A stretch of DNA of 64,000 nucleotides from Phorcus lineatus. Lineage: Eukaryota > Mollusca > Gastropoda > Trochida > Trochidae. The notes under the pieces are model-generated. The model ran no database searches, had not been told where the DNA came from, and saw only the letters and a program-made list of their open reading frames with translations. This document shows positions 446 through 55,257 of the stretch, piece after piece. Position 1 is the stretch's first letter; each line of letters starts with the position of its first letter. The stretch covers positions 24,777,997 through 24,841,996 of the forward strand of contig OV121082.1 of NCBI GenBank assembly GCA_921293015.1. The letters are read 5' to 3'. Made by a program: the position numbers and the translations under genes.

Positions 446-1040
446 CCGGGAAACGTCTCCTTTACTGAACAGGACGCTGAGGTTCTATTTTGTTCTGATA
501 ATGCAATTGTCAGAAGAGTTTTGAAATTTAGAAGCCCCTTAGGTTCTCAGATTGCTTATATTGCAAAGACAGAATTAAATGTTGATGTTGCAGGACCTTC
601 TTCCAGGTTTATATGTTCGTTGAATGATGAAATCGTTTTGGTTTCCTGTCTTTACATCATAGTCCGTCATCAACATAAATCGAATACATATTGAGGGTCT
701 ATTTCTGATTCTTTAAAAATATTCCTCAAAATAGTCAATCCTTTAAAAGGTCTAGAATCACTCTTGATTGATGAGTTAATCGGATAAATATAGGTCCATT
801 AAAATAAAAATATGATAAGATGTTCCATTCAAAGATTTGGGGAATTTTGAGGCTACATAGTTTCGTTTTCTTAATGTTGGGGGATGACTTCTTCTATGTA
901 TTAAAACGAGACCAATATCATTATAAAGGCAGTTACACTATCGATTGTTATGGTATACTTTGAAGGTGTTATCAATATTGTTTGGTTGCCTCTGGTTGTT
1001 ATCTTAACCCAACAAACATTATGGTGACATATAAATTTTG
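446..1040. other. Intergenic stretch without recognisable gene
   Basis: AT-rich sequence between the SINE and the satellite. A 102-codon frame (386-694) starts inside the SINE head and resembles no family I know, so I treat it as chance. I see no splice-flanked exon, repeat array or RNA gene here. Confidence 0.5.
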
Positions 1041-23721: not shown

Positions 23722-26189
23722 GGCAGATGACACTACTCCCATCAACTTCACGATCAATGGAAAACCATACTCGGGTGAGTAAGATTAAAATGAATTTTTG
23801 ACATTGAAAATTAGTTTTGAAAAATACTTTCTTAAACTGAAAACATTTGATCCAGCACAACATTAGATTGAAAGGAAACTATATTGACAATAAGGTATTC
23901 GCATCTATGTTCAACATTAAAAACATTAATGTGTATATTTGATGCAGATATCAAGTAATAGATACATTTTTGCCTAAAAAAATACTTCCAATGATCTTAG
24001 CATATGTGGTGTAACTAGGAGTAAATCAATTATATTTATCAAAGAAAAATATCATCATAATAAACGGTTGAAGAAATTCAAAAGTTGAAACGTATGTTAT
24101 TCTAAAAAGTGTATTGTGCTACATCTTGTTTTTGGATCACACTATCTGCCCTGTAAATTTTTTGGTTAACGTCTTTTACGAACCAACACCAACAAAATAA
24201 GGCAACAATGTCCAGAACGGACAATTGGGCTACCAGGGCTCGAACAAAAACAATGTAAGAATGGTTTATTTTGTAAATTTCTTATATTTCTATTTCTTTT
24301 ACTCTTCAAATGCGGTGAGTATGGAGATCATATCAAACTCATGTCACACCCAAATCATACCATTAAACAGCTTCTCTTATGTGATAATTTTCAAGTGGCG
24401 GGTGAGTATGATGTGGAGATGACCCTGAACGACTACCTGAGGGAGGTGGCGTGTGTGACGGGCACCAAGGTCATGTGTCGGGAGGGAGGGTGCGGATGCT
24501 GCGCTGTCTCGGTCACCAGACTGGACCACAACACGGACAAGGAGACCACAACATCCATCAACTCCGTGAGTGGCCTCCTTATCTTCTCTCTTTGGAATCT
24601 AAATATTCTGAATTGGCCACAGTCGGTCTGATTAAAATCGTCCATGTTCCGAGGAATTAAAGCTCCAAAATATTGACTTTGTTGAGATTCGAACTCGTTA
24701 CGTCTATGACTTTACACGGTTTGACCATCCACACGTAGCATACTCTCAGTTAATCAATCCCAATGCCTCCGGCAAAGGCATTCGGTATCAGTATCTAGAA
24801 ATAATAACTCCCGTTTCAGGACCCATGTGTATATGAAGAGATATGAAAATAAAAGTAACATACTGCGCAGTATGTAATACATGAGTACTTCTGTATACAA
24901 ACATGTACCTATCACATACATTCAAATTCGTCTTTCTCTTTCTCTGGCAGCAATATTTTACTTTTACTCTTTGCTCGTGAGTTGGAAAACACATTCAACA
25001 AAGAGGGAAACTCATTTTATTAACACAGCTAAATCATCAGGTAAATGACATATCAGCAGATAATTTGCGATATTGATTTGAGTGTTACAGAATACCAACA
25101 CATATGTAATAATCGTCTCGTATTCTAGTGCTTGTGCCCACTATACAGTGTTGACGGGTGGCACATCACTACAGTGGAAGGTCTCGGCAACTCCAAGGAC
25201 GGGTTTCATCCCATTCAGGAGAGAATCGCCAAATACAACGGGACACAATGTGGCTATTGTACCCCGGGAATGGTCATGAATATGTATGGGTAGGTATCAC
25301 ACATTTGTTTTACAGTGAATGCCTGAAACTTTATGTTTTAACAACAACACTACATATGTATATACTTAGAAATCGCCGCAATAAAGGAATGACAAAACTC
25401 ATGCAAATTCATCTAGATCAACCCGTCATTATTACCTGGCGCCCGATACGGTAATATGTTAATATTGACAGCATTTTATTGCATTGAAGTGTGGTTTTAG
25501 TATGCATAACTTTAATATTGAAAATACCGATAACCTAACTTTCGTTATTCCTTTCTTTACGAAATCACAGACGATATGATAACAAACATTATTATTACTA
25601 GTAGAAAATGTGCACATGTGCATTTTTTTATTTGCACATGTGCGCACCAGAAGTAAAAGATAATACCATTAATGAAATCGTTGAAAGAGTTAAATCCAAA
25701 AGCGTTTAAATACAAATTTTGGTTCCATGAATTCTAAAGAACAATGCCCTGACATCATCAACTACAAGACATCCATATGCTTTCACTTGTTCCGGAAAAT
25801 GGGAAGCCAAGCTCATTTCTTTTCAAATTTATGAAGCAACGATTTTGAAAATAAATGGAATGTCGCTTTCATTCCAAATGTTCAAATTATCTACAATTAA
25901 AAATTTCTGTGAGCGCGTTTGCTGATAAACGAGTTTAAATTTTACACAAACATTGCTCCCTTTTTTTAACAAGGGTGATGCTTAAAAACTAATACTAATA
26001 TCAAAAGATTTTGTGAAACATTATTATCTCAGGATCCTACAGAAGAACCCGCAGCCGACAGAACGTGAGATTGAGGACCAGTTTGGAGGGAACATCTGTC
26101 GATGTACAGGATACAGACCTATACTGGACGCCATGAAGTCATTTGCCAAGGACTCGAAAGATCCGGCAGCATCCTGCATAGACATTGAG
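23722..26189 (+). CDS. Gene 1 exons 2-5: the two [2Fe-2S] domains
   Basis: Exons 23722-23774, 24396-24565, 25129-25289 and 26033-26189. Exon 2 gives [11 protein letters not shown], the usual first strand of the ferredoxin-like fold. Exon 3 carries CREGGCGCC, supplying three ligands (C-x4-C-x2-C), and the fourth is the first Cys of exon 4, 22 residues on, as in bovine xanthine dehydrogenase. The second cluster uses CGYC at the end of exon 4 and ICRC in exon 5, with 35 residues between the first Cys of each pair, also matching the family. [18 protein letters not shown] is the form I associate with invertebrate aldehyde oxidases. Exons 3-5 and their introns are nearly identical to those of gene 2 (56462-58255). 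Confidence 0.93.
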
Positions 26190-29100
26190 GTAAACATCAC
26201 GAAGTAACATTAAGCAGTTCTTCTATGAGAAGAATTATGTAGTTATGTTGAGATTTTGCCTTATCGTTTATTGTTATAATCTCGTATTTTAGCAAAAATT
26301 TGGTTATGTAGATATTATGATATACAATGCCAACCCTTGTTGAAATTGAGTTTGTATCAGTATTAATTTGGAAGAGCCTATTGGGGGATCAAACTATTCT
26401 ATTCTAAGATTATTCATTGTCTTGAGCATATTATTAATTAATCATAAATATTAATACAATATTCAAGTTATACATATTAATCTGTTTTACCTGTCAATGC
26501 GAATGTGTTTAAAATGGCTATTATGTTACAAATATAGATAAAGAGTAACCCGAGGTTATTCACGAGAAGGTAATATCACAGTCAAAAATGAAAATCTCTT
26601 CATAAAGGTAAAAACAATCCCAAATAATTGTGTCACGCTTGTCGCACAAATATTGTCGTTTGATTAATAAGGGCAATAATTTAATAGCCTGGGGAAAAGA
26701 GCACACGTCGTTTCCTTATGTTTTGAAATGTTTGTTTTAAAAGGATCTCAAGATATGTCAGCGCACCGGCAAAGCATGTGAGGGCCATGATGATCACGCC
26801 AATGGTAGCTCGGCTAATGGATCGTCGGCTAACGGTTCAGCTAACGGATCTTCGGCTAACGGATCTGCAGACAGCGAAGGATTCCAAATAAAAGCCGGAG
26901 ACAAAACTTGGTATCGTCCCCAGAGTTTACCTCAACTTGTTAAGGTTCTTAGGTCAAACAAGGGGAGACAAGTCCGCCTTGTGTTCGGTAACACAGCCAC
27001 TGGTGAGTAGGTTTCAAGGTTTCATTTTGGCAAAACGCTAAACAAAAGAGTCCAATGGCGCTCGTAGGGTTCAGTCTCTTGCAAAGCTGCAGTTCGAGGG
27101 GAGTCTTTCTTTGAAGCAAACTTTTTAACTTTAATGATAAGGGATAAAATGCTTATCATCATTTGCCAATACAAGATATGAATATGAAATTAAATATGAA
27201 TACTTAAGGTGTAAAGTAATAATTTTGTCTTGCTATTCTGTTCAAATACTTATGGCAGTCTTATTTAAACTATTTATGCATGGCCTAGTCGTATATCCCA
27301 CTAAAACTGTTGACTTGTGAAGTTTCCGTGACACTCGCTACAGCCAGGGAGCGCTTTTGGAGTAAACAGTCCAAATTCACAAAGTCTTGTTCCAAATAGA
27401 TATATGAATTTTTAGCAATGCAAAAGTAATGATACGTGGGCTTAGTTTAAATGGTTTTACTATAGCACATAATTTTGTCGCGTACCTTATAAGTGTGTCT
27501 CACAGGTGTTTTCAAGAATGATGGTCCCTTCGACGTCTTCGTTGATCTCCACGACATCAAGGCACTTAGCCAGATCGAGGTTAGTGCGCATTCCTGACTG
27601 TGTTTAGTTTGGAGCCTTTAATACAGTCTAGGTCCTCATTCAGAAGGTCTAGGTTTGACTGCATACAAAAGTATAGTTGACAAAGGAGCAGTACATTATT
27701 AAATCCTTTTATATTCTAAATTTTAGTCTAGATCGATGTTTGTAAGCTTTTTATTTCTTTAGAATAAAAAAAAGGAATGTACGAAAAAATATGCGAACAA
27801 AAACAATGAAATCTATGAACCTACATGTACATAAACCCCTCCAAAATTCCTAAAAAGGAACAAACCATGGCAAAACATGTACTACCAATCATTGAAAAAA
27901 ACGGCAACCTTTTCTTAGTTATTATCAAGTAGAATAAAGACATTTGAGAAAATAACTAAGATATTGGATGTGTAGTTTCTTATTTTATCCACATTATTAA
28001 TTAATAGGTTTTTTTTAAAATGGAAATATTTGCCCCGTTTAAGTAAAAATGTCAAACCTTCGGTTTCGTGCTTTAATCGCACATCGAAACTAGGTTTGAT
28101 TGCAAAACATAAAGATATATTTTGGCATCTATTTCCTTAAGAGCTAAAACGGGAAAGACACAATAAAATGCAAATAGATTTGCATGAAACGAATGAAATG
28201 TCTAGATCTAGGGGTTCAAACGGAAATAGAAAGGACTAGGTCTTAGGAAAGTGTTCATGATTCTTGCATAACGTTTGTTTCAGTCCACCCGCAACAGTTT
28301 TAGGTTCGGATCCGGTCTGTCCATATCAAACCTGATGGACGCTCTGACAGCAAGAGCAGATGAAAAGGGTTACAACTACTTCAGCAGGATCGTCAGTCAT
28401 CTGGAGAAAATTGGCAACGTCCTTATCAGAAACGTAAGAATTGATAAGTATTTGAAAATACGCGGCTTTATCGTAGGATGGCTTTTCCATGTTCAATCGT
28501 AAAATCATACCACTGAGATCTGAACTTTTTATTAGCGGTTTTCATTGTTTTGTAGAAAGGGAAAAGATTAGCCTTGACGTAAAAGATGGGAAAGTGTAAC
28601 GTTTTAATGCTGTATTTGTACTCTAGGCCGAGAACATCTAGAACCTTATCAGTTATCGTGAGCTTGACATCTTTTTAGTTTATTGTTTTCTTCCGTTCTG
28701 TAGGCTGGATCCTGGGCAGGCAACCTGATGATGAAACATGCGCACCCTGACTTCCCATCAGATGTCTTCACACCAATGGAGGCCGCTGGAGCTCAGATCT
28801 ATGTCCTGGGTAGACTTCATAAACATTCCATGTTGATATAGAGAATATGTCCGCCTTTTTCTGAGTATTACTCCACAAGGAAGTACTTTAGTGGCCTCAT
28901 TAGACGATCTGATCATTTTTATACGCAATAATTGACTGTGTTCAATCTGTTTAATGATTGAACCACCGTTGGGGAAATCTCATGGCCTCGGTTGCAATGT
29001 GACGTAACAAAAGAAATCGTTACGATGGACGTTTTATTCATAACGTCAAACATGTTGTTTTTTTCCATTTCAATTAGTGCAAATAGAATGTTTTCACTTT

Positions 29101-32100
29101 TGATAATTAATAGCGAGTTATTTCAATGTCTAAATGGGGGTATTTCAACAGAACTCATCTAAGATATGGGAACAAGCTTTTCTTCCTTTCTCAGCAAACA
29201 GTATTGGGGTATAGTTTGTTGATCGAATCATTTTCATTAAATTTGAAGGCCATTAAATAGATACCTGTGTGGCCATCAGTATTGATTTTATAAAAAAAAA
29301 TTTATGTAATACATGTCATCAGTTTTATAAAGCGATTACCAAATATTCTCAACACTCTCTGCCTTAAATATCGCCGTATTTTTAGTAGCCAGCCCCTCAA
29401 TAAAAAAATTACAAAGTTCCAAATCTAAGTTTTCAAAAGATAAAGTAACTTTTTATTTCCAGATGGGAAGGACGGCAGCATCAAGTCCTACCCACTTCTC
29501 AGCCTGGTAGAGTGTCTAGACATGACTGGTAAAGTAATCGTGTCTATCGAACTCTTCAAACACGAGATGAAGTACAGGTTCAGATCCTACAAGATCATGC
29601 CACGATCACAGGTAATCTATCGTTAGACCTTCCAATATCATGCCACGATAAGAGGTAATTAAGGTTCAGATCTTCGAAAATTATGCTCAGATCACAGGTA
29701 TTTAATGTTCAGAATTTCCAAGATCATGTCCCGATCTCAGATAATTTAGGATCAGATCATAAAGATCATTTTAAGATAAAAAATTATTAAGGTTCAGATC
29801 TTCCGAAATCATGTCCCGATCTCAGATAATTTAGGATCAGATCAGTAAGATCATGTCAAGATCAAACATGATTTAGGTTGAGACCTTCCAAGATTATGCC
29901 AGATCACAGGTGATTAATTTTGACAACCTTTAGGAAGGGCAATTGGGAGTTTCATTCATAATAACCTATTTGATGTTTTCATTTTAAAGACGTTTTGGGT
30001 CAATGTTTTTGGTGTTTCTAGACTTAAACACTTTTCACAAGCCACATAATCTATCTATTGCAGCGGTCTATTCAAATTCTCAACATTTGTCATTGTTTTT
30101 TAATGATTGTGGGTGGAGCTAAAAATCAGAATCATCAATAATGAATAACTGAAAAAACACAACCTATAATTCATAGGAATGTTGAACAATAGTTTTTACC
30201 ATTAATAGGATCTATCTATCTGTCATATGTCAATATCATAATTTTTTTGGGGTTAAATTTGTTAACAGTATAACTTCCTAAAATAAAAGCAAAATGTTAA
30301 CTACTGTATAACAAAAAGTCACTTTTGAAGTGTTTATATCTTCTATCCCGTGTAGTATGCCATGTAAATTTACAATGCAGATTTATTGAGATATTGTAAA
30401 CTCTGAACTCTTGTACCTTTCAGAATGCACACGCCTATGTGAATGCAGCTTTCCGTGTGACAATTGACAACATGACGTTCCAGGTTCTTGGCAAACCTTC
30501 CCTCGTATACGGTGGCATCAACAAGTCAACCGTGAGCAATTGCTATTTGGAACAATAGGTTATATGAAGACTGATGAATGCAAGTCTATTGACATACAAC
30601 ATTTTTATTCTGAGAAGGTGACGTAGATACTTATGTCGTTTTCAAGTAAGTGACAATAATATCTCTGTCGAAACGTCACAGAATAAAGAAGTTGTATATC
30701 CATAAACTTGCATACCTCATTCTTCATCACCTAAATGATGCCCATTGTTTACATATTTCTTGTATATTTGGGACGATTATCATACGATCGCCTCTCTTCA
30801 TCAATATCAGTCAGTTCTGTAAATAAATACCATTAGAAATAAAGTTTCGCTGACTTTGTTATTTATTTATATCAATGCATTTTAATTATAATTAAATTAG
30901 GGTATTTATATAGCGCACATATCCACACCGAATGCATGCTCAAGGCGCTCCCTGCATTATTACCCCGGTCTAACCCAAGCTGTCGGTTACAGCGCTTAAA
31001 GGTCACCTCAATTATCTTTCTACTTAAAATAGAAAGACAATTATGGTTTTTGACACAACGATTCACCACTAAGATAAGATCTTCTGGATATTTGCCTACT
31101 TCTTCTTAATTGTAATCAATCTCAATAGGATGTTATATTTTATAGAATCATGCCAAGAAGACGGAAGAGCTCTTGACTGGTAAAAGCCTGAAAGACGCAT
31201 CGGTTATTCAAGGTAACGAATTCTACCTCTTTCATAAATTGTTATAAGTCATCAACAAAACCAAGCAAATTCTATCTAAGTAATGGGGATTCATAAGCAG
31301 AAGAAGGAATTCATTGAACATTTCAAAGTCTGTTGTAAACTTTGGAAAAATTGACATTCTTAAATCTAAATTTCTAATTTAAGAAGGACGAACGGTATGT
31401 ACAGAACCATGTTACAAAGGCAGTAGAAATGAAGTTGTCGCCCTTATTAATACTGCCAAGTGACTGCCGCAATAGAAAGAATCTCCTGCCACCACAAAAA
31501 TGAACACCACATGCTATGTCAGTGTATTCGTTTCCGCCGAGCTCCTATCCTTGTATATACCTAGTCAAATGCCTTTTCTCGCTCTTTATATAATCAGTCC
31601 ATGAAATGACTTGAATCTAGCTGAAGCAATACCCTGATAACAGGACCGTTGACATCTTTGATGTTTGCTTAGAGCTCTTTGCATCACGACATTTCATTGG
31701 CTGATAAACATTACGCGCTTAACATAGCCATGAATAACCAAACGCCAAGAAGATATTTGACCTTGTGGATACCAGGGTAATGTAGGACATGTGAAGATGC
31801 AAATACGCTGATGAAGCAGGTGGAAAATGCAATTCATCCTCCCTAGTCTGTTGATAACCCTGTTATATTCAACATGACATTGTATTACAGGAGCTCTACA
31901 GAGCCTCCACTCCGAGTTGCATCCAGAAGGTGATCAGGTCCTCGCCAGTCCAGAGTTCAGACGAAACCTTGCCGTCAATCTCTTCTACAAGGTAGGTTGT
32001 ATTTGGTATCATTTGATAAACGACTTGCGTGGTTTATATTAGTTTATCCCGAATGAGAACGAGGGATTTGCCTACACAGTCTCATGATTGTAATATGTCC

Positions 32101-35100
32101 AATAGCAAGGGATATTCTTCAGATGGGCAACATATGTAAATATCATTCTCGATATGTTTACCTTCTTACATGTATAACAAACGAGGAATTTTTCAAAGTT
32201 GCTAAAATCACTTTGGTAGATAATGCTTTATTATCTATTCATATGTCTTAACGGGAATGTTAATCGGAAAAAAACTATCATATCCGGATCATAAGTGTTT
32301 AACTGATTAATGATATTCTGAACGCTAAAATTTACCTTATCGTCAAGCTGAAAGTAATTAGATAGAGAATTAATTGTAAACCTTGCTACAGTTTATCCTG
32401 AATATCACCGAACCAGAAAGCCAAAGTCTCCTTTCTGGGGGTCAGCCTCTTGATCGTCCAGTTTCCTCCAGTCAAAGAGAAGTTCCAGAACAGAGAGAAG
32501 AATGGCCGCTCAAACAACCCATGCCAAAGTTGACCGCGCCACTCCAGGTACAAGACAAATTTGCAATGTACAATTTTGAATTTTTCAGTAATCCAGTCAT
32601 GCCAAAGATGAGTTTGCAACTCTAGGTACAGTGAAACGAAAAAGTTATTACCCCATTCAATTAAATAATTTTCAGTTCTAAAACAATGCCAGAGTTAACA
32701 ATACTACTCTAGGTACAACGGAATGGAGAATAAATAACCCATGCAGACTAAATGTTTCCAGTTCTTTTGAAATCATGCCAAAATAAATACGCCTGTACAG
32801 ATACTGTGGTTTGGTACCATACAATTTAAGTATGTAACCAAAATCTAACACTCAATGCAAAGTGTCTGCCCAACTGTAAGTGTCTGTCCCACTGTAAGTG
32901 TCTGCCCCATTGTTAGTGTCCTTCCATGATTGGAGTTTTGGGAACTTTATTTTTCTTGGAAGATTCTTTTATATTCATTTGTCATATCATGTGACTGTTC
33001 ACAACAGGTCGTGTTAGAGCATTTAAATATAACAATAGCATTGTGTGGACTATTGGGGAATCTTATCTAAGGGACAGTGCTCCTTTCAGTGCAGTGAATC
33101 TTCAATGGCATTGACTTTTTATCAAATGTTTTGAGCTCTAATGACATTTTTGTTTTGTCTATTTTTCGAATACGAATACTGAAATGTTGCAACATGAAAA
33201 ATTAACATATTTAAAACGATTTAATGTAAGAAATTCTAGATTTCGACATGACAGGAAAGTCAGCATATCAGCACTATCTATCTTACGTTATTTTTTGTCA
33301 TTTCTATATTGCCAGGCCTCAGGAGAGGCAGAGTTTATAAACGATATCCCAGTTTCTACCAAAACACTCTGTGGGGCCTTCGTAACGACGACCATTGGTG
33401 CTGGCACCATTGACCAGATTGACCCGTCTGCAGCATTGGTACGTTAATCAAATGTATCAGAAGGGTGAACTTGAAATACTGCACCCCATCAATTGAATGA
33501 ACTTACCTCAAGTGCAAGTGTAAGAGCATATTATTGTCACTGAGTAGAGTTAAAAGTGCATGTTGTTACTAATACAAAGTATTTTGACGTCATGAACAAT
33601 GGTCTGAATGAAAAAAATATTTTATTATATCATATTGTTGCTATCGGCGTTCAGTTTGAAATGTTTGTTTCGGGTCAGTAGAAAGATGCTGTGTTAAAAA
33701 TTGAAATATCTGTTAATACCATCTCGTTAATCAGGAAAAGACAGATATCTATTATTCATTTATGAAGTTCCTTTGTTTACCAGTAAATTATGATGAGTAT
33801 CAGTATCAATGATATACATGAAATGTCATGTGTTTCGGTATGCATATTGATCTGACGATCACATATGAATAAAGAAATGACTTCTACGTATATACCACTA
33901 CCCTTTGTTTTTATAATTTACGTACTGGTTTATATGTGCAGCTTCAACCAGGAGTGGTTGATTTCATCTCAAGTAAGGACATTCCAGAAAGTGGCGAGAA
34001 CAACTTTATGGCCACGTACTTAGGCATGCAATTCAAAACTGAAGAGGTAGCTATTTGGATCATATATACTCAGAAATGGTTGTTATTTTTAATTCCATTC
34101 CAAGCCTAAGGCATCCTTGAAATCACCAAGTCAGCTATTGCTTTAGCTCCTACCTTGATTACTTTTTTTTAAATCTAAGAAATGAAGGACATCACTGGTC
34201 CAACCCTATCTATTTATTCGTTTCAAGTAAACGTCATTCAGAACAATGAAGGGTCAAACCCTCACCTAGTTCTTCACTTCAAATTAAGCTATGCGTTAGT
34301 AGCTCAAACCCATGTGCTTAAATTTAAACCAAATCCACCCAGGATATCGCAGGTCCAACCATAGCCATTGCTTCATTTGGAATTAAAGAATCCAATCTCA
34401 AGAAGGGCTTTATTTTAAAACACTATCCTCCAAGGAGATCTTTAGGTCCACCCCTTAGCTTTAATATGTTTCATTTTAAGTTACTTTAAAATTTGACACT
34501 AGATTTAAGAGTTGTACTAATTGTTTTAACTAATTAATTTCATGAAAATAACCTTAAGGGTTTTGATAGCAATGATTTTTTTAATTTCTAAAATCGCAAA
34601 GTCTTGAAAAGAAAGTAAATTTATCATGATCATGCAGCCGGTACATTTCTCCACGTTAAATATAATGTGAATGTTTCCAGGTGTTTTGCAGTGGGACCGT
34701 TGAATACGATGGGCAGCCTTTAGGAATGGTTCTAGCAGGTAGTGCATTTACTTTTGCATTACATCTTTTTTATCTAATCCTAGCTGTTGTTTGATCCTAG
34801 CTTTCTATAAACTTGAACTGAGACGATTGTTTTCAGTGGCATCATATCATGATAATGATAATTGTTAAATATTGTCAAATTGTCAACTGATATTTGGATC
34901 CATTTATAACTTGTATATTCATTAATGAAGTATGTAGTTTTTCTCAATTATTTTCAATAGATTCCCAGGCTGTTGCTGATGCTGCAGCCGCAAAGGTGAA
35001 GGTTACGTACAAAGACCAAAAGAAACCGGTTGTGACAATTGACCAGGCCATTGTAGAGGAAAGTTTTCTTGCGAACCCATTGATGGAACACAAAGTTGGA

Positions 35101-38100
35101 GATGTTGAAGGTGAAATTATCAGAATCACGAAGAGAACCTCTGCTTACTACATATAATGAAAATAAATACTTGTACAATTTGAGTGAATTTAACCTTGAT
35201 TTTCAAAATACAAAAGTACTTTTCATGTTGTGTGCTACGGTATATAGATGAAAACTTATTTTACCATACAGTACGTATAGATGTTTGAGTACGTGTGATA
35301 TATTTACAATTTGACAAGTTAGTAAAACCAGTACGCAATTTGCGTACTCTGTCGTGGTTTATAAAACTGCTTTCAAAACGTCATCTGTTGCAATGTACAC
35401 TTTTAAGACGAAAATTATATCAGAAATTATTATTGAAAGTCAGGAAATTTTAGGTTTTTCCATTTTTATATGTGGAAAATCGATGTAGAAATTTATGGGC
35501 AAACAATGTATATATAGTCGTACTTTCACACATATCATGATGTAAAAACGTTACAGTTTTACAGTACGATACTAAATGTTATAAATATCTGTATTTCGTA
35601 ATACTTTATCTGTATTTTTGAATTTGCAGATGCCTTTAACAAATCAGCCCATACAATCAAAGGATCGACAAGACAAGGAAACCAATACCACTTCTACATG
35701 GAAAGCAATGTGAATATTATTATTTCTTATTCTTTTCAATTACATAACTTATTATTCTCTGTCTTGTTGTAAAGTAATATGCACATCAAGAAACAAGTTA
35801 ACCTAGGATCGCATTACACCGTAGCCTTGTTGTGGCATTAGCGTCGCTTAACGAAAGCGTAGTATTTGTCAATTTTTTTATTGGTATGCATGCACAATCT
35901 GGACTATTACAACGGACTTCTTTTCCCACAAAACTTGTTTCGCTTTAAGTCTCTCGTCAACCTTATGATCTTGCCACCAGGTGGCGCTGTCAGTACCATC
36001 TGAAGACAGGATGGATGTATCAAGTTCCTGTCAGGGAGCTGATGCCATCCAAGCAGCTGTTAGTCAGGTTCTTGGAAAGCCAAATAACTAGTAAGTAGTG
36101 AATATTTAGAGCAATTAATGTTTTATCTCATCAAGGTGGGTAGCAAGTTCATTACATCCCAAGTGGCAAGAGGATATCTTCTTTCATTGACATATACCAT
36201 GTTCGAATTCATCTCAACGAGCTGGGTAAAAATAACGTTATTGCACGAGTGAAATATCAGCTGTTGTACCGGGTAGTTCATTAAAACATCAAAAACGTTT
36301 AACTTCCGTGCGACTTACAGGATACATCCGACCATTGTCCATCTTCCAATATGAATAACGTTATATTGCACCACTCACTTTTCATAAAAGAAAATTATGA
36401 AATGGTCACTGAATATGTACACCATTTATCACGTGCACTCGCTACATTTTACCGTCAAAAAGTGCAATATTATCGCTGACGTGACGATATATATTGTATA
36501 CAGCTGGAAGAAACTTTAAGTATTTCCACACCAACTTTGCCTTTAATTCTTCCTATGTTCTTTGATATGAATTACATATTTTTACCGATCTAATATCAAT
36601 AATTTGTAATTCGACAGTCATTGAAAAGCAAATGTTGCAATATTTCTTCCATGTGTATAGATGGCGGCATTTATAAGATACTTTTGATAACTACTGATAC
36701 ACCTAAAGATTTATTACGCAGTAGGCTATGATGTTTGAAGAGGAGAACATCGTGAATTTCCGATGAAAAAATGAAAACAAAATCAAAAGGCACTCCTGCA
36801 ATTTGCTAATTAATGCTTTAGCTTTTCAATCAGTTTATTTTAAAAAATAAAAAGATTTGAAACCAAAAAGTTCTTAAATAAAGAAATATGAGTAATAAAC
36901 TTTATAAAGTTATAAGTTGTTATGACATGTTTCGTTTATTTCAGCATAAACGTAAACGTCCCCCGAGTAGGGGGTGCATTTGGAGGGAAAGCGTTCTGTT
37001 CACTTCCGGTGGCTTCAGCTACTTCAGTCGCTGCCTACAAGCTGAACAGGTAGGAAGGGAACACAGCTGAATCATGTGTTGTTTTCGGCAAATGAAAGGG
37101 AAACGATGATGCGGGCCATATGTCCATTAATAAACGAGATTGTATTATTGCATTATCCGAGCGGGAGCTACGGTTATTGACTTAGTTGAACTATTTTCTT
37201 TAAAAAACTATCCGTCTTCCGGGTTAATAATATGTTGCTATCGGTTACATTCCATTGAAATCACAGAGGGAATAAAAAAAGGAGCGCGCTTTTCTTGCAT
37301 TGATGACATACCGAATATTTGTTTTATGACGGTTAAGATGACGAACAGAGGTCCTCGCCTTCAAACAATATGCATTATATTCGAAAATAGTTTTTAGAGA
37401 TGTTATTAATTGTATTCCATAATATTGGTATAACAGGACGTGATATACATATAAATACACAAGTTGAGCCGTGGCCCCTTATACGGCTACGCTATATGAC
37501 TGCTAGGAATTTATTCGCAAACCAAAACAAACTATTACGTTAAAAGATTGTTGGACAGTTCGACGCTAAGATTGTAAGGGACAAAATTAATTCATTTTAT
37601 TCAGGATTTACTCCATGATGAGACATCTTTCAACATTGTGTGAAAATTATCATATTTCTTTACACAGACCAGTCAAATGCAGTGTTGACTTGTCAAACAA
37701 CATGAAGATGTTTGGAAAGCGGTTCGCGTTTTTAGCCAACTATGAGGTAGGTTCAACCAACATGACAATATTCATTACCATCAGAGTCGAAACTGAGTTG
37801 AAACATGCCAAGGACATCATCTAAGGTTTAACCAATGTTATATTTCCCTTTTTTATATTCACTCTTATTTGTTTTTGGGTTGGTTTTTTTTTTCAACTTT
37901 GCAAATTTAAAAAAAATGAATTTAATGCAACAGCATCTCTAATAAAACCTAGAGCCAATTTTGAACGAGCATAATTTGGGATGAGTTTCTTTTATATTGA
38001 GGATGAATTTAGTCTCAAATTTTATATTTGACAGATCGGTTTCGACGATAGCGGAAAGATGAATGCCATCAGTGTAGACGTATATACAGACGCTGGATAT

Positions 38101-41100
38101 GTGGCAAACTTTGCAGTCATCTTTCATGAAATAATCACCCATATAGACCAGGGTAGGTATAGACATTTATTGGAAATCATCATAAAACTTAATTGGTGCC
38201 TGCATGTAGAAGGTTTAGAGCATGTATTCATAAAATTTCTTTCATAGCTTATTTGGTTGTACTTTTCTTTTTTCCCTATATCCCCAATACAAATTTCAAG
38301 TCTTTGATTATAGTAATATGATTCTGCTGTCATGAAAGACAGCCCAGAAATAAATGCAAAGTAATGCATTATACATCTGAGTTTTTGGATTAGATTTGAA
38401 CAGTATGCGTTGATTAAATTAACCATATATCATCAGTTATCAAGTCTGTGTTTCTTTTATTGTTACAAAGCAATTTAATATAGCCGTCGGTTACTGGAAA
38501 TGTTACAAATGTATCTATCGACCATAACTGTGTCTCTATTGTTGAAATCAAGTTTTATACGATAACGATTTCTATGAAGTATGATAAATGTTATCATAAC
38601 GTAATATGGCGAATTTTTAAGATTTACGGTAATTGCATCAATATCTTGAATTCTCGTCACTTATTGTTTCTACTACTGCTTCATGTCGTTTATACACTTC
38701 CTATTTTGAAACACAGGATACCACATCCCCAATTGGAGAGTAAAGATGATAGTATGTAAGACCAACAAAGCACCTTCACAGCCGATGCGTGGACCAGGTA
38801 GGAATTTTGATATTGAATCTCTCTCTTAAAGCAATATTCCATTAACATAGTTGAGGCCATCGATATTAGCTTACCATCGCCATCGAGTACTGCAATTCTA
38901 GTCTTTAGCAGACATGTGCAAGTATTCAACAAACAAATAAACATTTTCTTCCGCAGTATAGGTCGGACAAAAACCGCTGGTCAGGGTTATTGTTAATCTA
39001 TGGTAATGCTGTGAGTGATGATGATGAAAAGAGACAGTAATATAAGTAAATACGAAACACTAATTATAAAATTATCAGATATATTTTATACGTTTCAGGT
39101 CCCTACCCTGCTGGATTGATCATTGAGTCGATGGTTGAACATGTTGCCAGCGCTCTTGGCAGGGTACCAGCAGATGTGAAGGAAACCAATCTATACACCG
39201 AAGGACAGGTTAGTCACTATATTAAAATAACACCCCCTTTCTAAATGCAAGCATATTTTTATTTGAAAAGTCCAAAGATAATTCATCAACTTATTATTAA
39301 CCTGTACAGGCTGAAGTTGTATCTCAAGGACATATTATACCATGCTATCATGATCAATTATTTTGCTTAATACTTTGAATCATCTATTTGGAACTGTCAG
39401 TAACAAGTTTCTACCATTCAACACTTCTCTGAACGGACATTCATCTCATTATTACCCATATGGTTATTCTTAAGCGGTGACATATTTTCAATATGAGCAC
39501 ATGTGCACATATCACTTTTGCCTACCAACGATTGTCTAAGCGCGAGTTACCGTATTTCGTCGTCTGGCTCGGGTAATACTAAAATTCACACTCGTTAAAG
39601 TCATATGACACACTTCCTCGGGTAATAATCTCTATTTATATCACTTGTTATTCCAGTTCTGTACGAGATTTTTTATTTATCATGGAGAAGTCAATTTTTT
39701 ATATCTTGTCAATCACTGTCTTTGATTGATTACAGAATTCCAGAACTGATAATTAATGTTACGTTAATGAACCTAGTCGTCACATTGCACATTATCTGTG
39801 TTATGCAATTAGTAGATAAAAAATTAGCAAGCTCGAAAGTGCTTCAAACATTTGTACCGTACAAACATATGCCTCCAACACCCGATCGGCTTGTATATAC
39901 ATTCACAGCCGTTTGGTTCAAATGCTATGATACACTTGTTCATGTAAAAATATTTTTATATTACAGATTGATATCATGGGTCATGAGTTGAAGGATTGTA
40001 CTTTAAGAAGAATATGGCAAGAACTTCGTGTGTCATCTGAGTTTGACAAGCGGCGTGCAGAGGTCGATGCCTTCAACAAGGTTACTTTACTTTTACCGAA
40101 ACATGGAAAGATTAGCCATGGATCCTTATGTTAATTCATAATTAAAAGAAGTTCCCAACTCACAGAATTATTGCACTTTAACACATTGTCAGCCTTCTTA
40201 TGGAAGTTTAACATGGAATGCTACAAACCACACCCTTCAGACCCCCCGCCCCCTACCTAGCCCGTCTCTCGTTGCACACGAATAGCCTGTTGCCGCTCTG
40301 TAAAGCACGAAATGAGATGCGAAGGATGTAGATGTTTAACATCTATTGTCAACTCCAACTAACCATCCAGTTCAAACTTATTTGTCATTGAGGTATGGGA
40401 GTCAAGCCTTAACAACCTAATCATTAAGAAATCTGAATCTTTTTATTGTGAATAAAGTTAAGCCTTCAAACATCGGCCATCTTTAGAGTGTTAAGGTAAA
40501 TTAGAATGGTAAGGGCCATATGGTTAATATTTCTTCTTAGATTATATTAAAAAAAACTACATAAAATTCATATTCCTCGCTGGGAATCTAGTGACATTTC
40601 TTTGTCGAAAAGTAATATGTGCATTAAACTTTGAATTTTGATGGGTACATGCCATCTTTATTCTCTTAAGTCTCCAAGTAGTGTTGTCGAGCAAACAATA
40701 TACTGATGAGCGAGAGAATTAATTTCTTATTTAGGTCCAAACTCAATATCAGATAACGATGTTAAATATTCTTCATTTTCAAGGACAACCAATGGAAGAA
40801 ACGAGGAATATCAATGAGTCCAGCGAAGTATGGGTTCTTCTACATGGGTGGAGGGATCACAGTGGACGTAGCCATTTACTACAGAGATGGAACTGTCACT
40901 GTCAGCCAGGGAGGAATCGAGATGGGACAGGGGCTGTATACAAAGGTACACAGTTGTTTTATCGGAGTGCCATTGATCACATAAATCATATAGTTTTTAT
41001 TTCACATTTAAAGATATCACTTACTATTGTGTCCAGAATTTTGGTAATTCGTCAAAGGACTATTGTCGGTAATGGTTGAAACGTTCAGGGACTGTATATC

Positions 41101-44100
41101 TTATCAATACGGTTTGTTTTATCTCAAAGCAATCATCATGGGTTAAATTGGTTGATGCATTGCATTACTTTATATATTGGCTTAGAATGATATAACTTGT
41201 ACGTGCTTCAAATTTTCATGAAATGTACCTAACGAAATCTCCCAAAACGACAGTATATATCTCTTCATTAGTTGTAAAAAAAGCAAGTATACAGGAATTA
41301 GATAGTTGAGGTCGGCAATTGAGCCAATAATTTAATTTACAGCTCAAGTAGCAGGAAATCGTATCTTAAGGGAAGTTTGATAGGGTACCTTTCAACAGAA
41401 CAATCATTTCAACCTTCCAAAACCCTTTCCCCATGCAGAAATTGATTGTCTTCAATCAAATAAATCATCATTTTGCCTTCATTTCAAGATTGCCCAGGCA
41501 GTTGCAAGTTCTCTAGGAATACCTATCAGCATGGTCAAGGTGAGACCGACCAACAGCCATATCGCCCCCAACAACCCTGTATCAGGAGGCAGTGTTGCTA
41601 GTGAACACGCAGTTGAGGTACGTGAGGTCGAACGTAATAGGTAAATGTAACGGTGAAACACGCGTCAAGTGTTTTGGCCAGAACTTTAATTTGCTTCTTT
41701 ATTCCTAATGTTCAAATTAAAAACAACAAGAGCACGCATCATTTAAACATCCTTATTTAATTTTCATGCTTTAAGTTATTAAGTAAACATCTTAAAGTAT
41801 ATGCTACAGGTCCTATTTAACCGACTTAAAACAATCTTTGGAAAGCGAACTCGGTTGTTGCTCAGGATACTGTTTAGAAGCGGAAGCAGATATTTCGTTT
41901 GGGCGTTGTGCGCCCCATATGTGTCACAAATGACAATTTATATACTTTTAGTTAACTATTTTGCAGATTCGTTTAATTCAAATTTGAATGAATCTTTTCA
42001 TCAAAACCTTCCTTGTATACATTTATCATGTATGAGAAATACTTTCTTTGGGCCTGTCTTGCGCACCCCCGATCTCTCCCCCTTGATTTGCCATTGCTGT
42101 ATATCTAATGGCGAATTATGCAGGGTGGTAAGCCTGATCAATATCTTTTACCTTTAACACTCCTTCTCGTCTACCCTTGTTCCAGTCTGCTCTTCGATGC
42201 TGCGAGATTCTGAACGAGAGGATAGCGCCAATAAAAGCCAAGCATCCTGACTACGACTGGAAGAATTTGGTCACTACCTGTACCGTCGCAGGCATTCCCC
42301 TTTGTGCTAAACACAAGTACGGTTGGATATTTGTTCAAAATTATCTGTTTATGTCACGTAATGTTTCTATCTGTATCTCTGTTTCAATGAGGACCAAATG
42401 AAAAACATGTTTTGCAACTCATTTTAATGTGACATTTAGGACTTGCAAGAATTCAACCACGTACATGAATGTGCTCATTGTTATTGAAAACTGCATACTG
42501 ATGCATATTCTCAAGGCAACACATGTCATGACACTGCATTGTCAATATATCTTTTAATTTAGTTAAAATGATCCTTCGGATAAACGGTATATACGGTTGT
42601 TAAAAGGCATTTCATGTTGAATTTTAAAGTTAAAGGAACAGCAATTGATTGCCCTCTAAATATGAATTTTTTTATCTGAGTTTGTAAAAGAAATACCCTC
42701 CCATTAGAAGACTTATATCTGCCATGTGCCTTGATTATAACAAATAGCATCGCTCCTGAGCCGGCTATTCTATTCAATTGAACAGATTATTGAGCCAAAG
42801 CATGAACTCTTGGTCGCAGCTCAGCTCACCTAACACTTAATTGCCACTTACCTTTTGACGTCATGCACCAGCGATTGATCACATACATGTGACCTATTAC
42901 AAACCTCTCCTTAATACGCTTATATGAATATAACTTTCAGCTGGGCTCCTAAAAAGCATGACGGACCTGGAGTGTTTCACTACTTCTCGTACAGTGCAGC
43001 GGTCAGTGAGGTGGAACTCGATGTTCTCACTGGCGAGAGTCAGATCAGGAGGGTGGACATTCTCTTCGACTGTGGGGAGAGGTATGTAGGATAAATTGAG
43101 GTAAAAAAATGATTGTTCAATTATACCCTGTCCCTACGAAGTTAGTTGGGAATGACCTCCGTCCGTAGTGACGTAACGAAATGTTTTCGCTTGCACAGTA
43201 GGGTGAATAAGTAGCTTTGGGGCCCGTGCTTGGGTCAAGTATGCTGGTTTTGCCAAACCGGAGAATTCTAGGTACCCTTACCTGTGTCCGACATGTTGGA
43301 AATAAGTGACACACACGTTCCATTCCTGATATTTGATTCAAAGGTCTTCGAAGTAAAGAGTTATCACAATTACCTGGTTATTTAGTTGGACAATTAATGG
43401 TTCTTAAGTGTTACATGCCTTCTCCTATTCTTATTTCTCCACACTACCGTAAACCACTCAACCACAAGCTTGGTTACATTTATATGCAGCATAGAATGCG
43501 ATTAATTAAGTGAATTCTGATTCTGCAAAGGAAACGTGTCATCTCGATGGCATTATCAATACATTGTCTTGGATTCTCTCCAGCTTGAACCCAACAATCG
43601 ACATGGGACAGATCGAAGGGGCATTCATGATGGGTGTGGCAGGCCACATGTTTGAGGAGGTCATCTATGACAAAGATTCTGGTCGTGTGCTCAACGATGG
43701 GACATGGGTAATGAACATTTTGTATATATCATCTGAGATTCACATCTAAATGATAACTTCCGTGACAGTTTGTACTATAAGGAGTCACTGCATTTGAGAT
43801 ATGAATTAAAAATATATTTAACCTTGTGTCTACACCACTTATTCCATTTCTGTCTAAAATAGTCTCATATGGTGCGTGTCAATTATGAAAAATCGATTAC
43901 TTTGTAGTATTTATAAATTTACATTATATGACCGTTGCTGGCGTAAAATAAATTGTTTGCATCAATAAATTCCACTTCAAGTCAACAGATGTGATGTTGC
44001 GTTATTTTGCGTTTTAGGAATACAAACCCCCAACAACAAAGGATATCCCAATCGATTGGCGGATCAAGCTGTTGAATGATGTCAAGAATCCTCTTGGAGT

Positions 44101-45393
44101 TAGGGGCTCCAAAGGTATTCCACATGTTAATGAAACAATAATGAATGATTGTTATTTACTGATACATCGGTGTAGGTCCAAGCATATAGGTAAGACGAAA
44201 CACTAAACCTGCCTTTAGTTCTCAACAATTATGACTGTGGCGTAAGGATTTAGTTTGATCTCAACTATATATAGTAAATTAAATAATCCATTTTGTTCCG
44301 TTACTGCCTCAAAGACGTAGTCTCATATACATGTACGATACCTCCAAATTCATAAAGAAGTCATTTTGTCCACAGAATATATATCTACAAAACTATACAT
44401 GCTGATTTCACTAAATATGTCAGAAATGATGCCTTAATGTGACTGTTGGTAAAATGTATACATGAACACTGCATACAATGCATTGCGGTTTCGTTTATCA
44501 CAATTTGACTCAATGATAAATTCCTTTTTTCTCCCAAAAGTTATATATATATGGCACTTGAAAGACATGTTCATCTTAGTCCCTGGATGGGTAAGATATT
44601 TGAATGAGTGAGTGTATACTGGTCATCAAAGAATCTGTAAGCTTATGTGACTATAGCTGGAATTACCTTTTTTGTAACAGCAAGTGGAGAACCGCCCATT
44701 GTCCTCTCTGCTTCTGTCCATTCTGCGTTGAAACACGCCATGGAAGCAGGGCGCCAAGACATTACCGGAGAGAAGGACTTCCAGCCTACAGGTAATGGGT
44801 CTGAACTATATTCAAATTATTTCACAGTGAAAAAAAGAATTGTCCAATTGACAAGATATGAAAATAAAAGTTGTGCAATTGGTTGTGTAGAGTTCAATAC
44901 TTTTATCTTCTCAACCTACATTTATTCGTCCACATGACAGAGTATTTTCAAGAAAGCAGGAACTGATATTGTTTGCATTAATTAAACATCTCTAAGGTTT
45001 GAAAAGAGACGAACTATCCATGAGGTCATCGGTTTGTTTGGTTCTGATGCCTTAGTATTCACACGTAGCGTGAATAAAGAAATAATAAATAGCAATAAAA
45101 TGAAAGTTTCACAACAGCAAGATGAACCCTAAATTCTAAAGCACTTTGATTAGTTCTCGTTTTGGTCTAAGAAGGTGGTCAAAGTCATTAACAAATATGA
45201 CAATATTTTTATGATAATGTGGTATGACTTTGCGCATGAATTTGTAAAATAAATAAAACATTTAAATTATAATGCATTGTCCTTTCATAGGGAAGTATAA
45301 ATACATGAACTTTATCAATTTCCAGTTTCTCCTTTGACCGTTGAACGGCTTCAAGTCGGCTGTGGTTTCAACATCAGCAAGATGGCTATTTAA
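23722..45393 (+). CDS. Aldehyde oxidase-like molybdo-flavoenzyme, gene 1 (33 coding exons placed)
   Basis: Cytosolic enzyme of the xanthine dehydrogenase/aldehyde oxidase family; it should oxidise aldehydes or N-heterocycles at a molybdenum centre and pass electrons through two [2Fe-2S] clusters to FAD. Every exon was located by homology, GT-AG borders and phase continuity. Coding length with exon-1 candidate A gives 1314 residues against about 1330 for the family. Domain order: 2Fe-2S (about 20-105), 2Fe-2S (115-190), low-complexity linker (about 205-230), FAD (240-480), Mo-cofactor (590-1290). Aldehyde oxidase rather than xanthine dehydrogenase is favoured by loss of the FFPGYRKT-like flavin loop, GGAFGGKA where xanthine enzymes have GGGFGGKE, Glu in place of the xanthine-binding Arg880, and RGPG in place of RGFG, while the catalytic Glu in GEPP is kept. 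No frameshift or stop is seen. The start exon is unresolved. A tandem paralogue begins at 55915. Confidence 0.93.
24390..26211 (+). repeat. Block about 99% identical to 56456-58277 (first copy)
   Basis: Covers exons 3-5 with introns 3 and 4 of gene 1, i.e. both iron-sulfur cluster binding sites. It includes the intron 3 SINE-like relic and the ATGTGCACATGTGCA direct repeat in intron 4 (about 25605-25645), both present at the matching positions of gene 2. Confidence 0.9.
24675..24775 (-). mobile_element. SINE-like relic in intron 3 of gene 1
   Basis: On the minus strand a GAGTTCGAATC B-box-like motif follows a tRNA-like stretch (CTACGTGTGGATGG, TAAAGTCATAGACG). It also occurs in intron 3 of gene 2 at 56741-56841 as part of the nearly identical block, so it is not an independent insertion. 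Weak call: tail not recognised. Confidence 0.35.
26744..30531 (+). CDS. Gene 1 exons 6-11: linker and FAD domain
   Basis: Exons 26744-27002, 27506-27579, 28284-28433, 28704-28809, 29463-29611 and 30424-30531. Exon 6 starts with [12 protein letters not shown], then a Ser/Ala/Asn/Gly-rich linker of repeated SANG/S units (26795-26870), then [12 protein letters not shown]. The flavin-binding loop is VFGNTATG (family VVGNTEIG) and the second flavin contact is [10 protein letters not shown] in exon 9. Where NAD-using xanthine dehydrogenases have a PGYRKT-type loop there is [10 protein letters not shown], which argues for direct transfer to oxygen or another acceptor. Exon 11 ([12 protein letters not shown]) parallels QNALAIVNSGMRV-type sequences of aldehyde oxidases. 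Confidence 0.92.
29612..29920 (+). repeat. Tandem decayed copies of the exon 10 end and splice donor in intron 10
   Basis: Exon 10 ends TCCTACAAGATCATGCCACG then ATCACAG and the donor GTAAT. After it, intron 10 has about seven further imperfect units of about 40-45 bp, such as AAGATCATGTCCCGATCTCAG, GGTTCAGATCTTCC and AGATCACAGGTGATT, ending near 29920. Some units retain CAGGT and so look like extra splice donors. The equivalent intron of gene 2 (after 60929) has no such array. Confidence 0.8.
30890..31030. mobile_element. SINE-tail-like repeat in intron 11
   Basis: TATATAGCGCACATATCC, then CATGCTCAAGGCGCTCCC and ATTATTACCCC, match the tail of the SINE at 170-205 (CATGTTCAAAGCGCTTCC, ATCATTACCCC). 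There is no tRNA-like head here, so it is a truncated copy or a related element. Confidence 0.5.
31146..35709 (+). CDS. Gene 1 exons 12-19: first half of the molybdenum domain
   Basis: Exons 31146-31212, 31891-31991, 32392-32547, 33316-33438, 33942-34046, 34681-34738, 34961-35110 and 35630-35709. Exon 12 and 13 cover the hinge ([30 protein letters not shown]). Exon 14 ends [15 protein letters not shown] and exon 15 begins [12 protein letters not shown], the entry to the Mo-cofactor domain (family ATGEA-DDIP). Exon 17 contains [10 protein letters not shown], including the glutamine that contacts the molybdopterin in family structures. Exon 19 has NQYHFYMES (family QEHFYLE). Phases are continuous throughout. 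Confidence 0.92.
32548..32800 (+). repeat. Decayed copies of the exon 14 end with splice sites in intron 14
   Basis: Exon 14 ends ATGCCAAAGTTGACCGCGCC, ACTCCAG and donor GTACA, with ATG at 32521. The block recurs with ATG at 32599, 32686 and 32775, a period of 78-89 bp. The first two copies keep AACTCTAGGTACA or TACTCTAGGTACA, i.e. an intact GT after the exon-like segment, and each is preceded by a TTTTTCAG/TTTTCAG acceptor-like run. The fourth is broken by a TAA. Confidence 0.75.
34095..34490. repeat. Degenerate tandem repeat in intron 16
   Basis: Four or five loosely similar units of about 70-95 bp share words like AGGTCCAACC or GGTCCAACCCTA, TAGCTATTGCTT and TTCATTT. Divergence is high, so unit borders are only approximate. 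Confidence 0.4.
35981..40945 (+). CDS. Gene 1 exons 20-27: substrate pocket and cofactor loops
   Basis: Exons 35981-36090, 36945-37049, 37668-37746, 38035-38152, 38717-38797, 39099-39208, 39967-40080 and 40784-40945. Exon 21 encodes [10 protein letters not shown]: the xanthine-enzyme Glu802 position is Ala. Exon 23 reads [11 protein letters not shown], aligning Glu with Arg880 of bovine xanthine dehydrogenase, and exon 24 gives YHIPN, VCKTN and QPMRGPG, keeping Arg912 but with Pro in place of Phe914. These are bovine positions counted from the family alignment I know. Exon 27 carries [12 protein letters not shown], a strongly conserved molybdopterin-binding loop. Confidence 0.92.
36190..36500. 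other. Inverted-repeat-like segment in intron 20
   Basis: TAACGTTATTGCACGAGTG at about 36232-36250 is echoed in a different orientation and spacing by GAATAACGTTATATTGCACC at about 36353-36372, followed by further GTGCAATATT words. It could be a decayed MITE, but I cannot fix termini. Confidence 0.25.
41489..45393 (+). CDS. Gene 1 exons 28-34: C-terminal molybdenum domain and stop
   Basis: Exons 41489-41617, 42186-42316, 42941-43081, 43584-43707, 44018-44114, 44681-44791 and 45326-45393. Exon 28 has [18 protein letters not shown], the aldehyde oxidase form of the family's TVPN-SPTAAS loop. Exon 31 has [13 protein letters not shown] (family DIGQVEGAF-QG). Exon 33 contains [19 protein letters not shown], whose Glu corresponds to the catalytic base Glu1261 of bovine xanthine dehydrogenase. 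The last exon encodes about 22 residues ending NISKMAI and a TAA at 45391-45393. The C-terminus is slightly shorter than in vertebrate homologues. Confidence 0.92.
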
Positions 45394-48021: not shown

Positions 48022-48540
48022 TTAAAGTCGGATGTTGTGTGCAACACTCCTCAGGTCAATTTGTTGTCTGTTCCTGAAGTCTGCCGCGATGGTCTGCAGA
48101 CGCTGCTGGCAATCCCTGTACTGTTTCCTGTGTCGGGCAACGTTCTGGCCGGCCAACATCTGCGTGATGACCTGGTCGTTCAGGGCTTGTTCCTTCCTCA
48201 GAACCTCAAGGAAGCGCCAGATGCTGGGATGACAACCAGCCATGCTGGTCAGAAGTCTCCGGTGCCATCCCTCAAGATTGTTGTTTGTCCTAGGCAGGTC
48301 TGTCAGTGTCCTCTGATGCTGGTTCCAGCTCGAGATGGCAAACATCGGGGGTCGTCGTCCTCGGTGATGCAACCGCCCAATGTAATTGTCCTCAAAGTAG
48401 TCAACGACTGTCTGCAGGGAATCAGGTAGAGTTTCGGCCAGCGTCTAGAAGGCATTGATCACCTGGTCCTCGGGGATGAATGCCAGAGCTGGTATCATCC
48501 TTGCCTGCATCTGTAGCTCGGGCGATGCTGAATATTCACC
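48022..48540 (-). pseudogene. MULE-type transposase C-terminal fragment
   Basis: Minus-strand frame whose first part reads MIPALAFIPEDQVINAF then a TAG at 48445-48447, then TLAETLPDSLQ, FEDNYIGRL, RTNNNLEGWHRRL, HPSIWRFLEVLRKEQAL and ADFRNRQ, ending at a normal stop at 48022. The RTNN-EGWH and HP-IW-FL-L-KEQ pattern is the C-terminal region of Mutator-like transposase proteins (often with an N-terminal FLYWCH zinc finger) common in marine invertebrates. The zinc finger and DDE catalytic core are absent and an in-frame stop interrupts it, so it is a dead fragment. Confidence 0.75.
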
Positions 48541-49237
48541 CTGTAGCATAGGGTAAAATTTTCGGGTAACATGGAATTCAGAATATTTGTGTAGCGTTTG
48601 TCAGATGAATGTGTTTCATGTGATGATTTTATCCTCATAGTACTACGGGTTTCCGAACCCTTTTGTATAAGGGGCGTAGGCACACCCTTGAAATTGTTCC
48701 GGCATGGTTGAAGTGATAATGAGTTGCTCCGCAAAATTTGCATTTATGGTGTCTTATGTTTGGTCACTGAACATTGAATAAGAAGTCAAATAGATACTAC
48801 AAATAAGCCTATTAATTCCGTTTAGGTACATTATTGTTAGAAAGTAATAATGTGTTTTCACTCGACTGAGCTATAAAAAAAATAAGAAATGCATTCATGT
48901 AGATATGTTCATTTTAAGTGATTAAGTGGAAACGTTTTTCGATGATTAAGAAATTTTCTTCCGCTGAAATACTAAAACTATGTTTTGAATCTCTGCAAAC
49001 TCACAGATGCTTAAAAATTCAGGTTTCACTGAATCGGAAGGAATTACCTTGTAATCCACATGACGTGAGCATAACCTATCTGCAAGTCATAGCAGCAAAA
49101 GTAACTGCCCTTGTTGAGTGAATGACATAAAAGCGACGCTTTCAGAAGCATTGAATATACTAGCAATTGTGGCCAAATATAGATTATCATGACACCGCAA
49201 AACATGTTGACTAGGCTGTAGGCGTCTCACTTGTCAG
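48541..49237. other. Non-coding spacer
   Basis: No exon or repeat recognised; the frame at 48918-49121 has no known motifs. Confidence 0.4.
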
Positions 49238-55147: not shown

Positions 55148-55166
55148 TCGACTACCTCTTTGCATA

Positions 55167-55238
<72 letters not shown>

Positions 55239-55257
55239 TATGCAAAGAGGTAGTCGA
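55148..55257. repeat. (AT)n hairpin with 24 bp unique arms
   Basis: TCGACTACCTCTTTGCATAA on the left and its reverse complement TTATGCAAAGAGGTAGTCGA on the right enclose about 60 bp of pure alternating AT. The whole 110 bp is a near-perfect palindrome. Overlapping open frames here encode only Tyr-Ile repeats and are artefacts. Confidence 0.85.

Follow-up and report, generated by a model that had tools for sequence, protein, structure and literature searches.

How do two neighbouring genes that have diverged nearly to synonymous saturation come to share an internal block that is almost identical, introns included? This question is raised by a stretch of 64,000 nucleotides from the gastropod Phorcus lineatus (GenBank assembly GCA_921293015.1, contig OV121082.1, positions 24,777,997 to 24,841,996 of the forward strand), here called the window. 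It contains two genes of the aldehyde oxidase/xanthine dehydrogenase family, arranged in tandem on the same strand and offset by about 32 kb. An earlier note on this DNA had drawn attention to exons 3 to 5 of the two genes. It is highly probable, as judged from the comparison of the two copies, that this block was exchanged between the tandem genes by interlocus gene conversion, which would have ended at the limits of homology.

Self-comparison of the window with BLAST aligned positions 24387-26211 with 56453-58277 over 1825 bp, with 19 mismatches and no gaps (98.96% identity). A base-by-base comparison defined the core of the block as follows:

24390-26193, + strand: core of the homogenised tract, gene 1 copy, 1804 bp aligned to the gene 2 copy
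56456-58259, + strand: core of the homogenised tract, gene 2 copy, 1804 bp aligned to the gene 1 copy

Within the core, 1790 of the 1804 bases match (99.2%), and the 14 mismatches (6 transitions and 8 transversions) are not accompanied by any indel. The identity of about 99% without net indel that had been claimed for 24390-26211 and 56456-58277 is therefore borne out, although that interval also includes a short fringe that matches less well. Two of the mismatches lie in the 488 bp of exons and 12 in the 1316 bp of non-coding sequence (Fisher p 0.38), and they are evenly spaced (largest gap 433 bp, permutation p 0.30); introns 3 and 4 (1306 bp) differ by about 1% between the genes. Because the mismatches are evenly spread and the exons are not clearly poorer in them, the identity is best attributed to shared descent of the DNA and not to constraint on the protein. 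The two genes agree in exon order, splice positions and intron lengths within the block, and a constant shift of +32066 converts gene 1 into gene 2 coordinates for exons 3 to 5.

The exons used for the comparison are:

23722-23774, + strand: gene 1 exon 2, outside the tract, 70.6% amino acid identity to gene 2
24396-24565, + strand: gene 1 exon 3, with the first [2Fe-2S] cysteines (CREGGCGCC)
25129-25289, + strand: gene 1 exon 4, with the CLC and CGYC cysteines
26033-26189, + strand: gene 1 exon 5, with the CRC cysteines
26744-32547, + strand: gene 1 exons 6-14 (flavin adenine dinucleotide (FAD) part), diverged from gene 2
55915-55967, + strand: gene 2 exon 2
56462-56631, + strand: gene 2 exon 3
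57195-57355, + strand: gene 2 exon 4
58099-58255, + strand: gene 2 exon 5
58418-63530, + strand: gene 2 exons 6-14, the gene running past the end of the window

The model of gene 1 thus spans 23722 (exon 2) to 32547 (exon 14), and that of gene 2 spans 55915 to 63530, where exon 14 ends and beyond which the gene leaves the window. Neither model (exons 2-14) contains a stop, and the intron phases were picked to agree between the two genes during model building. A search for exon 1 by ATG and donor site yielded no candidate, so the exon numbers were taken from the earlier note. In alignments, CREGGCGCC of exon 3, CLC and CGYC of exon 4, and CRC of exon 5 match the iron-sulfur (Fe-S) region of solved enzymes, and in this family these motifs hold the eight ligands of the clusters. 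Both cysteine sets lie inside the tract, in agreement with the claim that exons 3-5 encode both clusters; the shared block is thus predicted from its motifs to carry both [2Fe-2S] clusters.

The contrast with the remainder of the genes is strong. For the 163 codons of the tract, identity is 99.4% for the protein and 99.6% for the nucleotides, whereas the 405 aligned codons outside it (exons 2 and 6-14) are 77.3% and 75.3% identical, respectively, and the proportion of synonymous differences (pS) is 0.66. Synonymous divergence (dS), which the earlier note had proposed to compare, is 0.005 inside and about 1.57 outside, a rough value because it is near saturation; divergence is thus far from uniformly low. 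The protein identity of exon 8 is 72.0%, very close to the 72% estimated before. None of the 72 four-fold degenerate sites in the tract differ, compared with 77 of 144 in exons 6-14 (Fisher p 2.5e-18; exon 2, with 1 of 4, was excluded).

The introns behave similarly. Twelve intron pairs were compared; alignment is nearly perfect for introns 3 and 4, which lie inside the tract. Nine of the 10 pairs outside do not surpass the best of 20 block shuffles (intron 7 ties), and intron 5 lies just above it (32.5 versus 30.5), owing to its first 25 bp or so. Likewise, only 8 of 500 shuffles are as good as the whole of intron 5, a score again owed to the first 25 bp, and beyond these homology is unsupported, as 180 of 500 shuffles align equally well. 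Homology of the whole of intron 2 is also unsupported (91 of 500 shuffles as good); alignment of its end between the genes, with 4 of 500 and 2 of 500 shuffles as good, is suggestive only and was not used as evidence. The statement that the introns beyond the tract cannot be aligned therefore holds for nine of the 10 pairs and fails for the first 25 bp of intron 5.

Two observations concern individual coding sites. Within the tract, the coding sequences differ only by a substitution of two neighbouring bases (24525-24526 in gene 1, 56591-56592 in gene 2), where GAC (Asp) of gene 1 is replaced by GTG (Val) in gene 2. In the printed alignments, this residue is Asp in the xanthine dehydrogenase 3una and Asn and His in the aldehyde oxidases 28mb and 7px0, respectively; because Val was seen in none of the aligned solved enzymes, the Val of gene 2 is probably the new state. 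Outside the tract, four-fold sites differ less often in exons 13-14 (10 of 38) than in exons 6-12 (67 of 106; p 1.2e-4, a contrast picked post hoc). Exons 13-14 span 31891-32547 in gene 1 and 62724-63530 in gene 2, and the intron between them aligns no better than shuffles, so that these exons possibly record an older conversion confined to exons.

The borders of the block are unusually exact. The left border, at 24390, precedes exon 3 by 6 bp; at the right end, perfect identity extends 4 bp into intron 5, to 26193. Both borders thus indeed lie just outside exons 3 and 5. The first 25 bp of intron 5 (26190-26214 and 58256-58280) are 80% identical, with five differences; after the GT, 18 of 23 positions match, compared with a maximum of 13 in 132 off-diagonal comparisons. 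The part of this similarity that lies beyond the core forms a fringe:

26194-26214, + strand: right fringe, gene 1 intron 5, with similarity at chance level beyond it
58260-58280, + strand: right fringe, gene 2 intron 5

All five differences in these first 25 bp are transitions, compared with 6 of 14 in the core. If the ends of the tract fell at random in introns 2 (494 bp) and 5 (162 bp) of gene 2, the chance of each end lying so near an exon edge would be about 1-3%; with the 25 bp fringe included in the tract, the chance for the right edge would be about 15%. At the 20 exon edges outside the tract, runs of identity extend over 0-14 bp. Constraint on the protein does not explain the borders, because introns 3 and 4 lie inside them. 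The natural reading of the alignment is that pairing could extend to the edge of exon homology and little beyond. Conversion as a process is known, but borders this exact in paralogues so diverged look unusual.

An observation that goes beyond the earlier note bears on the history of the block. Intron 2 of gene 2 contains a relic array, in which the intron 2/exon 3 junction occurs twice in degenerate form:

56240-56280, + strand: relic A, degenerate exon 3 start in intron 2 of gene 2, matching the block at 34/41 positions, 17% diverged
56350-56397, + strand: relic B, poorer second exon 3 start, whose last 15 bases match exon 3 exactly
56281-56455, + strand: spacers and relic B, which make relics A and B and the live exon 3 a tandem array

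The unit of this array is about 110 bp long and consists of intron spacer plus exon start. Relic A was found with an expect value (E) of 4.5e-4 for the whole window and 4e-7 for the four flanking introns, and none of 500 shuffles were as good; its score of 54 compares with 32 for the best unrelated place in the window. Relic B (E 0.009 for the 15 bases) is weak alone and is backed by the alignment of the units (56271-56362 versus 56383-56468), which scored 74, a value reached by none of 500 shuffles (maximum 44). The spacers alone scored 60, with a shuffle maximum of 39. When the 12 whole codons of relic A were compared with the block, 11 of 12 third positions matched, and six differences lay at first or second positions. 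If relic A derived from a gene 2 exon that had diverged like the others (193 of 405 third positions), at most one third-position difference would be expected with p 0.005. Because relic A is 17% diverged, compared with less than 1% between the blocks, gene 2 probably contained an exon 3 of the block type well before the last exchange.

When the 26 modelled exons were compared with the window, only exons 3, 10 and 13 gave matches (E <=0.01) outside the modelled exons, so that there are three places where part of an exon has been duplicated into the neighbouring intron. In gene 1, the last part of exon 10 and the adjoining part of intron 10 (29578-29917) form a degenerate tandem array of about eight copies of a 43 bp unit (Tandem Repeats Finder); the units resemble the end of exon 10 plus its donor site, and BLAST with exon 10 detected three copies in the intron. 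Intron 13 of gene 2 contains two degenerate part-copies of exon 13 (62930-62983 and 63091-63149). A candidate relic of exon 3 in gene 1 (24305-24328, score 28) beat 500 local shuffles and was nevertheless dropped, because unrelated places in the window reach 32.

If the block was exchanged by gene conversion, a break in one gene would have been repaired with the neighbouring gene as template. Pairing would have been anchored in the conserved exons 3 and 5, and everything between them, introns 3 and 4 included, would have been copied. Copying would have halted at the outer edges of these exons, since introns 2 and 5 have diverged too far for pairing. The repair mechanism itself is inferred. As to direction, the relics in gene 2 intron 2 disfavour one recent transfer of the block from gene 1 into gene 2; we infer either a single event with gene 2 as donor or recurrent homogenisation of the block from the separation of the genes onwards. 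Repeated homogenisation would explain how exons could recombine in spite of a divergence of about 25% elsewhere, and why the block reaches the exon edges. The G+C content at third codon positions (GC3) is higher inside the tract (108/163) than outside (218/407 and 211/405; p 0.0065 and 0.0021), mostly by virtue of exon 3.

Several points weigh against this interpretation. The raised GC3 would fit biased or repeated conversion, but the tract introns are not clearly richer in GC. The 3-mer composition of the tract introns is closer to the other introns of gene 1 than to those of gene 2 (distances of 0.189 and 0.217, respectively), which opposes gene 2 as the donor; since this signal is weak and runs opposite to the relics, it was not used for direction. 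The relic test comprises 12 codons, and the rates at third and other positions are not significantly different (p 0.40). The exons outside the tract are about 25% diverged in nucleotides, above the threshold, "as high as 20 percent", that is given in PMC3728101. A single event between exons already diverged is thus awkward, and repeated homogenisation as the solution is hypothetical. Lastly, a recent partial duplication can look like conversion, according to PMC3966223.

An assembly artefact, in which one gene would have been assembled with an allele of the other gene's block, introns included, and the 14 differences would represent heterozygosity, is unlikely. The difference of less than 1% would fit the range of allelic divergence in outbred invertebrates. 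However, polishing with mis-mapped reads would be expected to alter exons, not whole introns that cannot be aligned, and an error in the assembly graph requires shared k-mers, whereas identity at exon edges, where both borders fall, is elsewhere so short. Furthermore, the left junction of gene 2 looks native, because spacer and exon 3 start were duplicated together as old relics; this does not clear the junctions of gene 1 or the right junction of gene 2.

Slightly less likely still is adaptive concerted evolution, in which selection would favour homogenised Fe-S copies; it would be layered on conversion, so that its odds overlap with those of gene conversion. The tract does cover exactly those exons that contain both sets of cluster cysteines. 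However, the tract exons are not clearly more conserved than the tract introns, homology accounts for the extent of the block, and neutral, homology-limited repair fits equally well. In addition, the survey of three mosaic gene pairs in PMC2720389 reported no significant overlap with functional domains.

An insertion scenario, in which partial duplication or transposition supplied a copy of exons 3-5 and the originals were then lost, is very improbable. The leftovers of exon 3 in gene 2 intron 2 could be taken in its favour, as could the ability of a recent partial duplication to mimic conversion (PMC3966223). Nevertheless, these leftovers are 41-48 bp junction duplicates in a tandem array, which resemble the block and not a separately diverged exon, and the searches found no remnant of exon 4 or 5. 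The intron positions are consistent with the rest of the gene pair, and tblastn detected neither a second set of exons 3-5 nor a third Fe-S copy in the window. The earlier note had proposed either recent conversion or partial duplication: the recently homogenised block stands and conversion fits it best, whereas partial duplication is weakened by the conserved exon order, intron positions and intron lengths and by the lack of a second set of exons. Purifying selection alone, which the conservation of Fe-S domains in the family, seen also in the alignment, might suggest, is refuted, since introns 3 and 4 differ by only about 1% while the other introns cannot be aligned, and the four-fold sites are identical too.

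Apart from the block, the modelled part of the genes looks ordinary for their family. Fer2, Fer2_2, FAD_binding_5 and CO_deh_flav_C all score above the curated cut-offs in both models, in the same order as in the family (7px0). Among solved structures, 7px0 ("Aldehyde oxidase 1") is closest to gene 1, with 394 bits over residues 9-562; the next PDB chain scores 222 bits. The modelled exons 2-14 showed nothing out of the ordinary except for a variable linker in exon 6 (12 protein letters not shown), where a 15 bp coding repeat in gene 1 (26809-26866) gives rise to an NGSSANGS linker whose length and sequence differ in gene 2. Pieces of open reading frames (ORFs) for the molybdenum domains were found for gene 1 only:

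33317-44800, + strand: downstream exons of gene 1, molybdenum domains, ORF pieces with approximate limits

Of these pieces, 40766-40981 scores above the MoCoBD_2 cut-off, and 38032-38244 matches MoCoBD_1 below the cut-off. Two further C-terminal pieces align in order to xanthine dehydrogenase/aldehyde oxidase chains, their stretches not being significant individually, and the pieces reach to about 44.7 kb.

Between the two genes, 49234-52371 is a tandem duplication of about 1.5 kb with pieces about 85-89% identical. Upstream of gene 2 exon 2, a perfect inverted repeat of 110 bp with a (TA)33 run (55148-55257) is possibly a fragile site. Long open frames outside the oxidase genes, at 48025-48444 (- strand) and 323-691 (+ strand), have no Pfam match at E 0.001, and an Rfam scan of the window yielded no family at the gathering threshold.

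Comparable mosaics have been described in other animals. In the GOT1 paralogues of the arthropod Tigriopus (PMC3728101), diverged and homogenised regions alternate, and diverged introns were proposed to be able to end conversion. However, in GOT1Sd/GOT1Sr the introns are the diverged islands, whereas here two introns were copied and the outer introns form the barrier. In Caenorhabditis (PMC3966223), the linked paralogues col-12 and col-13 are 99.5% identical including an intron, with dissimilar flanks, and fog-2/ftr-1 are linked paralogues with conversion despite moderate divergence; homogenisation comprised the whole ORF (col) or short tracts (fog-2/ftr-1), in contrast to the three internal exons found here. 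Mosaic concerted evolution has also been described for the mammalian pairs DDX19A/B, TUBG1/2 and BMP8A/B (PMC2720389), in which at least two consecutive exons plus intron are more than 97% identical and the genes are diverged elsewhere; GC3 is raised in two of the three pairs, as it is in the present tract, here mostly in exon 3. Those pairs were followed across many mammals, and their segments do not coincide with functional domains. The oxidase pair was examined in one genome only, its dS outside the block is about 1.6, and its block contains a whole cofactor module. In the open-licence literature we found no report of gene conversion in aldehyde oxidase/xanthine dehydrogenase genes, which is no proof of absence.

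The pattern, as read from the sequence, is real and clean; that it should coincide with an entire cofactor module, in paralogues of this age, merits follow-up. If real, it would be a very clean natural case of heterology-limited conversion, with a 1.8 kb block that runs edge to edge at exon boundaries. The relics of gene 2 suggest how the age and direction of the exchange might be estimated without recourse to an outgroup. Caution is warranted for phylogenies: the wrong genes would be paired in trees based on the N-terminal Fe-S region of such oxidases. More tentatively, and with less than an even chance in our estimation, the Fe-S module and the two introns inside it might have been in concerted evolution since the gene duplication, a process from which the flavin and substrate modules would have escaped. 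The borders would then be set by exon edges next to diverged introns, repeated conversion would maintain the shared module, and exons 13-14 may represent a weaker, older echo of the same process. If this is true, one common module would serve two enzymes.

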